DNA of 64,000 bases, taken from NCBI GenBank assembly GCA_030754885.1, contig JASLZL010000094.1, positions 1 through 64,000 of the forward strand. Direction: 5' to 3'. A program made the translations under genes and the position numbers. Source of the stretch: Rhodospirillales bacterium (GTDB lineage Bacteria; Pseudomonadota; Alphaproteobacteria; Rhodospirillales; JASLLZ01). Below the pieces are notes generated by a model. The model ran no database searches and had not been told where the DNA came from. It saw nothing but the letters and a program-made list of their open reading frames with translations. Positions 3,321 through 58,151 of the stretch are shown piece by piece; position 1 is the stretch's first letter, and the number at the start of each line of letters is the position of its first letter.

Positions 3321-3779
3321 TCACCGGAGATCGCGGAAAAACGCCTGCAACACCTCGCGGCACGCCGTTTCGCCGACGCCGCCCACCACTTCGGGCCGGT
3401 GGTGGCAGGTCGATTGGTCAAAGATGCGCGGCCCGTGGTCGACGCCGCCGCCCTTGGGGTCATAGGCGCCGAAGGTCAGGCGGCGAATGCGCGCCAGGGA
3501 TATGGCGGCGGCGCACATGGGGCAGGGCTCAAGGGTCACGATAAGGTCGCAATCGGCAAGACGGGGCGCACCAAGGCGGGCCGCGGCTTCGCGGATAACC
3601 AGTATCTCGGCGTGGGCCGTTGGATCGCCTAATTCCTCGACGCGGTTGCCGGCGGCGGCCAGAACTTCGTTCGTTTGCGCCGCCACAAGGACGGCACCGA
3701 CGGGCACCTCGCCGCGCTTGCCGGCGGCCTCGGCCTCGGCCAGGGCCTGTTCCATAATGGGGTTAGGGGTCGGGTCCAT
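3321..3779 (-). CDS. tadA: tRNA(adenine34) deaminase TadA
   Basis: HAEILVIREAAARLG...TLEPCPMCAAAISLARIRRLTFGAYDPKGGGVDHG. Confidence 0.92.
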   Translation of the reverse strand: MDPTPNPIMEQALAEAEAAGKRGEVPVGAVLVAAQTNEVLAAAGNRVEELGDPTAHAEILVIREAAARLGAPRLADCDLIVTLEPCPMCAAAISLARIRRLTFGAYDPKGGGVDHGPRIFDQSTCHHRPEVVGGVGETACREVLQAFFRDLR

Positions 3780-3866
3780 GGCGCCGAGACTGCCGCCGCC
3801 GCCGGCTGGCGTCAAGCGTCCGCGCGACCCTTGTGGGGCTTGGGCGGGCGCCCTACACTTCGTTCC

Positions 3867-4586
3867 ATGGAAACGCCCGTCATTGGTATCACCGTCGATA
3901 GCGAACCGCCCGGCGGCTACTCCGGCCTGCCGTGGTATGCGCTGCGCGAAAACTATGCCGAAGCCGTGAGCCGCGCCGGGGGCCTGCCGGTGATGTTGCC
4001 CCACATGACCGACTTGGCCGAGCCTTATCTGGAAACCATTCGCGGCTTGGTCATCGCCGGCGGCGACTTCGATGTCGATCCGGCGTTGTTCGGCGCCACG
4101 GAGCGCCACGAGAAAGTGCGCACCAAGGACGCACGCACTGCCTTCGAGCTTGCCATCACACGGGCGGCTCTGGCGCGCGACATGCCGGTTCTTGGCATCT
4201 GCGGCGGCCAACAACTCTTGCACGTGGCCCTCGGCGGCACCTTGATCCAGCACATTCCCGACGCCATCGAAGGCGCGCTTGAACATGAACAGCCCAACTC
4301 GCGAACCGAAGCCGGACACGAATTGACGGTCGAAGAAGGCACGCTCCTGCATCGTATTGTCGGCGTCGCCACCATGGCGGTGAACAGCGCCCACCACCAA
4401 GCGGCCGCTGACGCACCGCCCGGCGTCGTCGTCAACGCTCGCGCCCCGGACGGCGTTATCGAGGGCATTGAGGCACCGTCCCGGCACTTTTGCCTGGGCG
4501 TCCAGTGGCACCCTGAATACGCCATCAGCGAGGGCGACGGGCGCATCTTTGCCGCCTTCATCAAGGCTTGCCGCCAGGGTGGGTAA
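3867..4586 (+). CDS. Gamma-glutamyl-gamma-aminobutyrate hydrolase family (peptidase C26) protein
   Basis: METPVIGITVDSE...LVIAGGDFDVDPALFG...VLGICGGQQLLHVALGGTLIQHI...GVQWHPEY. Confidence 0.88.
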   Translation: METPVIGITVDSEPPGGYSGLPWYALRENYAEAVSRAGGLPVMLPHMTDLAEPYLETIRGLVIAGGDFDVDPALFGATERHEKVRTKDARTAFELAITRAALARDMPVLGICGGQQLLHVALGGTLIQHIPDAIEGALEHEQPNSRTEAGHELTVEEGTLLHRIVGVATMAVNSAHHQAAADAPPGVVVNARAPDGVIEGIEAPSRHFCLGVQWHPEYAISEGDGRIFAAFIKACRQGG

Positions 4587-54513: not shown

Positions 54514-54849
54514 ATGAGCGACGACGGCAAGCGCGACGACGGCACTCCGACCACCGGCATTGCGGTCAAGACCAAACCCAAGACCAAGAAGCCTTCCATG
54601 TTCAAGGTCTTGATGCTGAACGACGATTACACGCCGATGGAATTCGTTGTCCATGTGCTCGAACGCTTCTTCGCCATGAACGAACAAGAGGCGACCCGCA
54701 TCATGCTGCACGTCCACCAACGTGGCATCGGCATCTGCGGCGTGTTCACTTACGAAGTGGCGGAAACCAAGGTCAATCAAGTGATGGACCTTGCACGCCA
54801 GCACCAGCACCCCCTACAGTGCACCATAGAAAAGGACGGAGACGAATAG
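54514..54849 (+). CDS. clpS: ATP-dependent Clp protease adapter ClpS
   Basis: [57 protein letters not shown]. Confidence 0.96.
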
Positions 54850-54853
54850 GTTC

Positions 54854-57166
54854 ATGCTGTCGCGTAATCTCGAGCAATCCTTGCATCGCGCCCTGGCAAT
54901 CGCCACCGAGCGCCGCCACGAGTACGCGACGTTGGAGCATTTGTTGCTGGCCCTTACCGAGGATGCCGACGCGGTGGCGGTGCTGCACGCTTGCGGCGTC
55001 GATCTGGACCAGTTGCGCCAGCACCTGACCGAGTTCATTGAAAAAGAGATCCCGGACATCTTGTCGTCCCAAGAAGCCGATCCCAAGCCGACGGCCGGAT
55101 TCCAAAGAGTGGTGCAGCGCGCCGCCATCCATGTTCAGTCCGCTGGCCGCGAGGAGGTAACCGGCGCCAACGTCTTGGTGGCGCTTTTCTCCGAACGCGA
55201 ATCCCACGCCGTCTATTACCTCCAAGTTCACGACATGACGCGTCTCGATGCCGTCAACTACATTTCCCACGGCATCGCTAAGGTGGCCGGCGAATCCAAT
55301 TCGCAAACCGTCCATGGCGCCGACGAGGATGCCGCCGCTGACAAGACGGTACGCAAGGGACAAGAGGCGCTCGATTCGTACTGCGTCGACCTCAACAAGA
55401 AGGCCGCCGAGGGCCGCATCGATCCCCTCATCGGCCGCGAAGCAGAGATAGAACGCACCATTCAGATCCTGTGTCGGCGCAACAAGAACAATCCACTGTT
55501 CGTTGGCGACCCGGGAGTCGGCAAGACGGCCATCGCCGAAGGGTTGGCCCGGCGTATCGATCAAAAAGACGTACCCGATGTGCTTAGCGACGCCATTATC
55601 TACGCCCTCGACATGGGGGCGCTGCTGGCCGGCACGCGCTATCGGGGTGACTTCGAAGAAAGGCTGAAAGCAGTTATTTCCGAGATCGAGGCCGCCGAAG
55701 GCGCCATCCTCTTCATTGATGAAATCCACACCGTGATCGGTGCCGGCGCCACCAGCGGCGGCTCCATGGATGCCTCCAACATCTTAAAACCTTCATTGCA
55801 GGGCGGCAGGCTGCGTTGTATCGGCTCGACCACCTACAAGGAATACCGCAATTATTTTGAGAAGGACCGGGCGTTGGTGCGGCGCTTCCAAAAGATCGAC
55901 ATTTACGAGCCCTCCCTCGAAGATGCAGTCAAGATCCTGCGTGGCCTCAAGCCCTATTTCGAGGAGCACCACCGGGTGCGCTACACGGCCGAGTCCCTGC
56001 GCACGGCGGTCGAGCTCTCAGCGCGCTACATCAACGACCGCAAGCTACCCGACAAGGCCATCGACGTTATCGATGAGGTCGGAGCCTCGCGCATGTTGCT
56101 GCCCGAGAACAAGCGCCGCAAGACGGTAACGGTGCGCGACGTCGAGGAAATCGTCGCCAAGATCGCCCGCATCCCGCCCAAAAGCGTCTCGGTCGACGAC
56201 CGCACCGTGCTCAAGAATCTGGAACGCAACCTGAAGACCATGGTCTTCGGCCAGGACAAGGCCATCGGTGCCCTGGTCAGCGCCATCAAACTGGCGCGCG
56301 CCGGCCTGCGCGAGCCGGAAAAGCCCATTGGGTGTTATCTCTTCTCTGGCCCCACCGGTGTCGGCAAGACCGAAGTTGCCCGTCAGTTGGCACGGACCAT
56401 GGGGGTCGAGCTGGTGCGCTTTGACATGTCGGAATACATGGAGCGGCACAGCGTTTCGCGGCTCATTGGCGCGCCGCCCGGCTACGTCGGTTTCGACCAA
56501 GGCGGGCTTTTAACCGACGCCATCGACCAACAGCCCCATACCGTGTTGCTGCTTGATGAGATCGAGAAAGCGCATCCCGACCTGTTCAACATTCTCTTGC
56601 AGATCATGGACCACGGTAAGCTGACCGATCACAACGGCAAGAGCGTTGATTTCCGCAACGTAATCTTGGTTATGACCACCAACGCCGGCGCCGCCGACCT
56701 GGCCAAGCCGGCCATCGGTTTCGAGCGCAATGATCGGGAAGGCGACGACAAGGAAGCGATCGAGCGCATGTTCTCGCCCGAATTCCGCAACCGGCTCGAC
56801 GCCATCATCGGCTTCTCTAACCTGACACCCGACGTCATGGTCCGCGTCGTCGATAAGTTCATAATGGAGCTGGAAGGTCAGCTCGGCGACCGCAACGTCA
56901 CCATCGAACTCGACTCCGAGGCGCGCGCCTGGCTGGCCCGCAAGGGCTACGACACGCTGTTTGGGGCCAGGCCCCTGGCGCGGGTTATCCAAGAGCACAT
57001 CAAGAAGCCGCTCGCCGAGGAGCTCCTATTCGGCAAGCTGGCCAAGGGTGGCGCGGTGCGGGCCCACGTCAAGGACGGCAAGGTCACTTTTACCTATCCG
57101 CCGCCCAACGATCCCAAGCCGCCCAGCAAACGACGCCGCCCCCGCGTTCCGGCGCTGGTCGAATAA
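54854..57166 (+). CDS. clpA: ATP-dependent Clp protease ATP-binding subunit ClpA
   Basis: [40 protein letters not shown]; two AAA modules ([32 protein letters not shown]). Confidence 0.97.
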
Positions 57167-57186
57167 TTCCTGAGTGCGAAGAAGTA

Positions 57187-57295
57187 TGGGCGCGGCGGCA
57201 GGACTTGAACCTGCGTCAACCTGCCCATACAGTGGAATTGGCCGTTCTCTCTGTATGTAGAAAGCAGGGGCTCTATCCGTTTGAGCTACGCCGCG
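57187..57295 (-). tRNA. tRNA-Arg(UCU)-like gene with a 32-nt insertion in the anticodon loop; encoded CCA
   Basis: Reverse complement: acceptor CGCGGCG/CGCCGCG, D stem GCTC/GAGC, anticodon stem CCTGC/GCAGG, T arm GCAGG-TTCAAGT-CCTGC, C+CCA. Loop region is 39 nt (TTTCTA-CATACAGAGAGAACGGCCAATTCCACTGTATG-G) rather than 7. Confidence 0.8.
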
Positions 57296-57308
57296 AAATC
57301 TGCTTCGC

Positions 57309-57809
57309 CTAATTCTGGACATTCGTGCGGTGCCGAAGCCCAGGCCGAGCGACAGCACGCCGCCGCGCCTTTGCTTCTTCTTCAACCTTTCGGAACTCGG
57401 GCTCAAGTTCCTTGAGCCGCTTCACTATCCCCGAAAGATCATAATAGTTGCTCAGCTTACCCATGTGCGCGGCACGCCGTTCGATCCGCTGGACCAAGCC
57501 GGCAGTTTCCAATTCCGCAATAATCCGCTGCACCTGCCGTGGGCTCAAGCGCAACCGTTCGCCCAAAGTTTTCTTGCTAGGGTAAGGCTTCCGCTCGGCA
57601 TTCCACCAAAAGTCGGCTAGGTGCATTAGAACTGCCAACTGCCTCGCATTCAGCCCAAGCCGTGCCTGAGCCCGAAGCAGAAGCGACGGGACGATGCAGA
57701 AGCCGAGGCCCATCACGCCCTTGCCCCATTTGCGCTCCGACGCCTTTGTTGCTTTCAACGGCCGTAGCGGGATAACCTTAGCCGAACCATCCTTTTTTGA
57801 ATCGCTCAT
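57309..57809 (-). CDS. Helix-turn-helix domain protein (MarR/replication-initiator-like winged helix)
   Basis: LNARQLAVLMHLADFWWNAERKPYPSKKTLGERLRLSPRQVQRIIAELETAGLVQRIERR. Confidence 0.75.
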   Translation of the reverse strand: MSDSKKDGSAKVIPLRPLKATKASERKWGKGVMGLGFCIVPSLLLRAQARLGLNARQLAVLMHLADFWWNAERKPYPSKKTLGERLRLSPRQVQRIIAELETAGLVQRIERRAAHMGKLSNYYDLSGIVKRLKELEPEFRKVEEEAKARRRAVARPGLRHRTNVQN

Positions 57810-58151
57810 TTCAAACCTCACTTACTCGGCAAATATATCCAGGTGAAGCGTAGGGTGCAAGCCCCCAGTATAAGTAAGTTATGACTAGTGGTAGGAGACA
57901 CAAACGTCTTTGGATTCTGGGCGAATTTGTCCTATGGTCGTGCCTTCACGTTGAAACAGTATTTTTATTTCTGCTTCAAACACGCGGCTTCTTACCGGGG
58001 AATAGTCGGAGGATAAGCTGATAAATGCTCTCGACACCAACACCCGAACCGGTCCTGCATTTGCAGTCGGATTTTGACGGTGCGCGAAAAGGAAGCGAAA
58101 GGTTTAGAGTGCCTAAGAATGTCGTTGATTGGCGCGTCCGCTGGTCGCCGC

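Follow-up and report, generated by a model that had tools for sequence, protein, structure and literature searches.

What is the role, in a bacterial genome, of an arginine tRNA whose anticodon loop carries an additional hairpin? The question is raised by positions 57187 to 57295, on the minus strand, of a 64,000-nt stretch of DNA from a Rhodospirillales bacterium (assembly GCA_030754885.1, contig JASLZL010000094.1, positions 1 to 64,000), hereafter referred to as the window. The original prediction, made from the letters alone, described at this place a complete tRNA-Arg(UCU) cloverleaf with an encoded CCA and a 32-nt excess near tRNA positions 37/38, and offered three options: a novel mini-intron, a tRNA tolerating an extended hairpin, or a tRNA killed by a small insertion. 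The essential context beyond that description is the adjoining winged-helix gene and the existence of a whole family of such cassettes. We describe here an RNA family that is real and conserved, in a cassette of a new layout, for which an effector role of the RNA is the best-supported guess.

The tRNA-like RNA and its relatives

The anatomy described at the outset is borne out by the sequence, by Rfam and by the fold. The RNA is 109 nt long, CCA included, with a 7-bp acceptor stem and with D, anticodon and T stems that are fully paired. It matches the Rfam tRNA family RF00005 with 51.3 bits (E 4.3e-8 over 64 kb) and our family model R2 with 105.5 bits, and the minus strand folds as a cloverleaf with an extended arm (z = -2.8 against shuffles). 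The insert, CATACAG...CTGTATG (57226 to 57257, minus strand), forms a hairpin, P2, that separates position 37 (A) from position 38 (G), as had been proposed, and excision of its 32 nt would leave a standard 77-nt tRNA. In the isolated arm, positions 33-37 are predicted to form a 5-nt bulge closed by a U32-G38 pair; positions 32-37, UUUCUA with the anticodon UCU, lie at 57258 to 57263 (minus strand). ARAGORN in bacterial mode called no tRNA in the 64-kb window and missed this RNA, an indication that standard tRNA finders can overlook such molecules. A group I intron had already been set aside in the original prediction, rightly so: ribozymes of this kind need some 200 nt at least, the insert is too small at 32 nt, and tRNA is the sole Rfam family matching in the window.

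When plasmids were searched at the DNA level, three relatives were retrieved that match the whole element, from Acidisoma, Methylocaldum and Caulobacter; they are 75-77% identical over 96-100% of its length, and the match includes the insert. The family was expanded by tracing the winged-helix protein through plasmids and genomes and seeking tRNA-like elements behind its gene, which yielded many more. Two covariance-model searches that were blind to the protein, one of 387 alphaproteobacteria and one of 399 genomes of the phylum, gave clear matches in about 1% of the genomes; they contributed the genomes G314, G110, G137, G553 and G599 (in our numbering, G stands for genomes, L for loci and C for contigs), and a protein-blind covariance search also found loci L105 and L212, both with a regulator homologue directly upstream. 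These searches bring the total to 22 elements at 21 loci, on plasmids and chromosomes of alphaproteobacteria and gammaproteobacteria, with a cultured strain, Caulobacter sp. FWC26 (plasmid p1), among the carriers; L048 provides two of the elements, the near-identical copies L072-L074, L098 and L101 are left out, and the divergent L043 is kept separate. The L048 pair is a tandem (3501-3768, Phenylobacterium sp. J367) behind a single regulator gene. L043 (2996-3124, a Paraburkholderia plasmid) is a 129-nt element behind the regulator, with a longer insert, seemingly two hairpins and no clear arginine anticodon. In a tree of the tRNA bodies the elements stand apart from 41 normal tRNAs (FastTree support 0.80, weak evidence from short sequences), and the one control row on their side is taken to be L043. 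A phage origin was considered and rejected: the Caulobacter-type RNA has no match in 50,697 phage records, and viral contigs hold only one fair homologue of the regulator.

Selection on the RNA is seen as covariation among 20 aligned elements, in an alignment fitted to the structure, which leans the counts. In this alignment 97% of the cells are paired, two-sided changes occur in 19 of the 25 pairs, the four outer P2 pairs included, and all five helices covary. None of 500 shuffles reaches the observed values, and the signal disappears when the partner is shifted by 1-3 columns. Despite the fitting, an effect of this size, together with the sliding control, leaves very little likelihood of a pseudogene, and we hold it as almost certain that the family is a conserved functional RNA. 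The intact stems had rightly been read as speaking against decay; conservation and the compensatory changes exclude a tRNA killed by a small insertion. Among the three options first offered, the tRNA with an extended hairpin comes closest in anatomy. In most predicted arms of the family, a 32-38 pair closes the anticodon stem and positions 33-37 are bulged before P2; in L037, L071, L075, L076 and L212 there is an internal loop GAAA/(A or G)AGUA, possibly resembling a bulged-G motif of the sarcin-ricin type. The pairing of AGAA in the insert with UUCU of the anticodon loop, suggested in the original prediction, is lost in relatives and was rejected as a family feature.

Some determinants of arginine identity are invariant in the family, and others are not. 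Bacterial arginine identity is attributed to A20, C35, U/G36 and A/G73, to which a review table adds U73, G2-C71 and C3-G70 (PMC9976931). All 22 elements have A20, C35 and U/G36, the chief ones among these determinants; G-C is seen at pair 2-71 in 18 elements and C-G at pair 3-70 in 19. The anticodons, as read from the alignment, are UCU (10), UCG (8), GCG (2) and GCU (2); the last would read serine codons, yet it retains C35 and U36. The discriminator base 73, by contrast, is C in 14 of the 22 elements, the window (57190, minus strand) included, against 1 of 42 control rows, which include L043. U33 is replaced by A or G in six elements, and the anticodon loop of the window, with its 32-nt insert, is not the 7-nt loop that accompanies U33 in a decoding tRNA. 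The encoded 3' end shows A76 in 17 of the 22 and C74 in 16. A normal tRNA-Arg(UCU) coexists with the element in all three genomes checked (G000, G110 and G137). The search for another such gene in the genome of the window found two ordinary copies, on contigs C82 and C100, so that the window RNA is dispensable for decoding AGA. This pattern appears to suit selection for recognition by arginyl-tRNA synthetase (ArgRS) better than selection for decoding, and it is probable that the RNA is not a decoding tRNA.

The regulator gene and its exchangeable partners

The neighbour of the window RNA is a gene for a winged-helix protein (HTH_36 / DnaD_N / RepC-N-like; 57309 to 57821, minus strand), with a start at GTG 57821 or ATG 57809, assigned from Pfam, from DnaD PDB chains by sequence and fold, and as a conserved neighbour. 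By sequence and fold, the protein groups with DnaD N-terminal and MarR-like winged helices and also with RepC N-terminal domains (the model has a predicted local distance difference test score, pLDDT, of 73). A spacer of 13 nt (57296 to 57308) separates its stop codon from the 5' end of the RNA. At all 16 regulator loci where it was measured, the distance from stop codon to RNA falls between -2 and 18 nt; such tight spacing leaves no space for a promoter of the RNA's own, nor, in the window, for a terminator. The regulator gene is upstream in 17 of the 21 loci, L212 included, or in 18 loci with L043; in the window, and equally on the plasmids of Methylocaldum and Caulobacter, it lies on the same strand directly upstream of the RNA. 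It is the sole protein family common to most loci, which share no third gene and no consistently linked integrase.

The cassette of the window occupies 57169 to 58145, with a leader and likely promoter at 57822 to 58145 (minus strand). It is flanked directly by clpS and clpA (54514-57166, plus strand, assigned by reading open reading frames, ORFs), of which clpA is convergent with it. The comparison of the clpA flank that the original prediction called for was made with G747, the single same-genus genome compared: there, about 52 nt separate clpA from the next gene, against about 980 nt in the window, a segment that contains just this cassette, leader region included. The cassette was either gained in the genome of the window or lost in G747. 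Order, spacing, occurrence on plasmids and presence or absence thus give the layout of a toxin-antitoxin module, that is, an operon-like pair of a small predicted DNA-binding protein and a second component on mobile DNA.

Many regulator genes, whatever their partner, are preceded by G/C-rich inverted repeats and then by a promoter resembling TTG(A/C)-N-CATAT(C/T), as seen by eye and not statistically, which suggests that the regulator may control itself. Direct or inverted repeats and antisense pairing between the RNA and the region of the regulator start fell below 0.05 by shuffling only in L070 and L096 of 16 loci, with no common pattern. The idea that the tRNA is carried to serve rare arginine codons of the regulator gene was rejected: AGA is nearly absent from this gene.

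The RNA is read as an effector mainly because the partners exchange in this downstream slot. Elsewhere, the same regulator family is followed in the same slot by PemK/MazF (sphingomonads), by HEPN/Abi-like proteins in rhizobia and Parvularcula (weak Pfam scores, with a visible RxxxxH motif), by NYN-domain proteins, or by an uncharacterised 'DLSHLxPF' family. Nine plasmid loci with protein partners were scanned and contain no tRNA-like element. The tree of regulator proteins requires a minimum of six changes of the tRNA label on supported branches. In it, the MazF clade is sister to the tRNA cassettes L033/L048 (97/94), and tRNA cassettes are intermixed with those of the HEPN and NYN types and with some of the DLSHL type; L105, L047 and L212 have long branches, and their placement is unsure. 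The window regulator itself is 70% identical over 141 columns to that of L093, whose partner is of the HEPN type. Genomes were searched for the regulator with a single peptide pattern, which favours one branch of its family, so that partner counts are not a census.

Several side observations concern these partners. The DLSHLxPF family follows the regulator in L042, L045, L079, L089-L092 and L095, and L038 has a probable relative (3388-3945) next to its tRNA-like element, encoded on the other strand; the members scanned have no Pfam hit, and a fair model (pLDDT 82) gives no convincing PDB match. A conserved G/C-rich hairpin (CCCCGGGCGC...GGGGC-like) directly follows the regulator stop and precedes the HEPN-type gene in L039, L041, L082, L084, L086 and L093, and it could be another RNA element. 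A PAGEV RNA (Rfam RF03037) is found at L040:1114-1332, on a 5.7-kb Vibrio vulnificus plasmid that also has the regulator gene.

What the cassette may do

We propose, with chances that we judge about even, that the non-decoding tRNA-Arg mimic is the RNA effector, or a sensor, of a mobile toxin-antitoxin-like cassette. We infer that the regulator gene and the RNA would be co-transcribed as a two-gene unit with the RNA as its 3' part, that the RNA is probably freed from the message by tRNA-processing enzymes, namely RNase P together with those of 3' processing or CCA addition, and that the winged-helix protein probably binds DNA and regulates its own cassette. The RNA body would retain the bases read by ArgRS (A20, C35 and U/G36) and expose anticodon bases bulged from one long helix, the features for decoding (U33, 7-nt loop) and for efficient charging (A/G73) being relaxed. 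Under control of the regulator, it may engage ArgRS or the translation machinery, as an effector in the place of an RNase toxin. A toxin-like action via ArgRS in particular is conceivable but somewhat doubtful; should the RNA bind ArgRS, it would constitute an RNA-based, plasmid-borne control of translation. It is likewise only tentatively that we suggest a new class of addiction or defence cassette, in which an RNA effector imitating tRNA-Arg presents a bulged anticodon to ArgRS under winged-helix control and is interchangeable with RNase toxins.

Several observations weigh against this proposal. Four loci have another feature upstream: an ORF of 102 codons at 8 nt from the RNA (L031), a DndB/DpdB-like gene (394-1634) at 6 nt from the interrupted tRNA-Arg (L134), an ORF of about 38 codons at 10 nt (L211), and a decayed remnant of the regulator beside an intact RNA (L099, in G314). 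L096 is one of the 17 loci with the regulator gene; there the assembly shows an interrupted regulator frame and an intact RNA. The chief objection to a simple pair of toxin and protein antitoxin comes from these five loci, and a plain antitoxin role of the regulator is strained by them; L134 suggests that the element may have other host genes. Some of the protein partners are not known toxins, the ArgRS determinants could be mere inheritance from a parent tRNA-Arg, U33 is kept in 16 of the 22 elements as in a decoding tRNA, and 37/38 is the classical intron site.

The position 37/38 leads to the first rival, in which an as yet unidentified nuclease removes the 32-nt hairpin and ligation of the two halves yields an accessory tRNA-Arg on mobile elements; if the RNA is spliced in this way, bacteria would have an unrecognised tRNA-splicing enzyme. 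The standard tRNA that removal would leave, the mostly arginine anticodons (20 of 22), the well-conserved tRNA body with its T and D loops, and the encoded A76 and C74 are in keeping with it. However, tRNA_int_endo (PF01974) and RtcB (PF01139), the two families searched, were not found in the five RNA-carrying genomes examined (G000, G110, G137, G314 and G359), control genomes being positive, and the predicted arms lack a bulge-helix-bulge, their common form being the 5-nt bulge on one side only. With the loss of U33 in six elements, the serine anticodon in two, the dominance of C73 and the normal tRNA-Arg(UCU) alongside, the mini-intron, which fits the site and the size of its product, is disfavoured, and we consider it unlikely. 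It is also rather unlikely that the tRNA-like fold is a cis-acting 3' element, mainly determining where the regulator mRNA ends, how stable it is or how it terminates, through an RNase P cut just behind the stop codon, and perhaps sensing ArgRS or tRNA-processing capacity. The close stop-codon spacing persists with the unrelated ORFs of L031, L134 and L211, and a hairpin with a T-run is seen by eye shortly after the tRNA at several loci (L032, L038), both in favour of this reading, but protein nucleases in the same slot and the kept C35 and U/G36 are left unexplained. Less probable still is a decoy or sensor whose bulged arginine anticodon baits tRNA-cutting toxins or phage-triggered nucleases, shielding host tRNA or signalling when cut; the slot shared with RNases and, at some loci, abortive-infection or defence-like neighbours (AbiTii after L033, the DndB/DpdB-like gene before L134) are compatible with it, but no nuclease is consistently linked across loci and the arm is far from a normal substrate. 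A pseudogene, whether an insertion-damaged tRNA or an integration-site relic, would be redundant with normal tRNA-Arg and located on mobile DNA, as this RNA is, but it is in practice refuted by strong compensatory evolution in a single family of distant taxa, with T and D arms intact and no consistently linked integrase.

Comparison with known systems

To our knowledge, no known module has a tRNA mimic in the usual place of an RNase toxin. In the open-access literature we found neither a bacterial tRNA with a small structured insert that is shared by separate lineages through conservation nor a description of such an element, a prior report elsewhere being possible. As intervening sequences, archaeal and eukaryotic introns at 37/38 share the insert position and size, but the present arms lack their bulge-helix-bulge and the tested genomes lack the splicing endonuclease and RtcB. 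Bacterial tRNA introns are described as self-splicing (PMC4390854). Group I introns in bacterial tRNA genes also interrupt the anticodon loop, whereas the present insert has about 30 nt. The tRNA-Other pseudo-tRNA of Bacillus cereus is also a tRNA-like RNA on a genomic island, reportedly with a regulatory, non-translational role, but it is a single-genome case, whose abstract mentions no extended anticodon arm or linked regulator cassette (PMC3399842).

As an RNA component of a module, the present RNA is closest to CreT, the small RNA toxin of CreTA modules, which ties up tRNA-Arg(UCU) and so attacks arginine decoding at AGA codons (PMC8501985). CreT, however, contains a mini-ORF made up of rare codons and is under repression by a CRISPR guide, whereas the RNA described here is itself a tRNA-Arg mimic beside a winged-helix protein; no Cas genes are annotated in the plasmid flanks shown, in which no dedicated search was made. 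As for layout, the MazEF/PemIK type II operons likewise have a gene for a small DNA-binding protein with the effector immediately behind it, and MazF is one partner of the present regulator family. The second component is a protein in those operons, and an RNA here.
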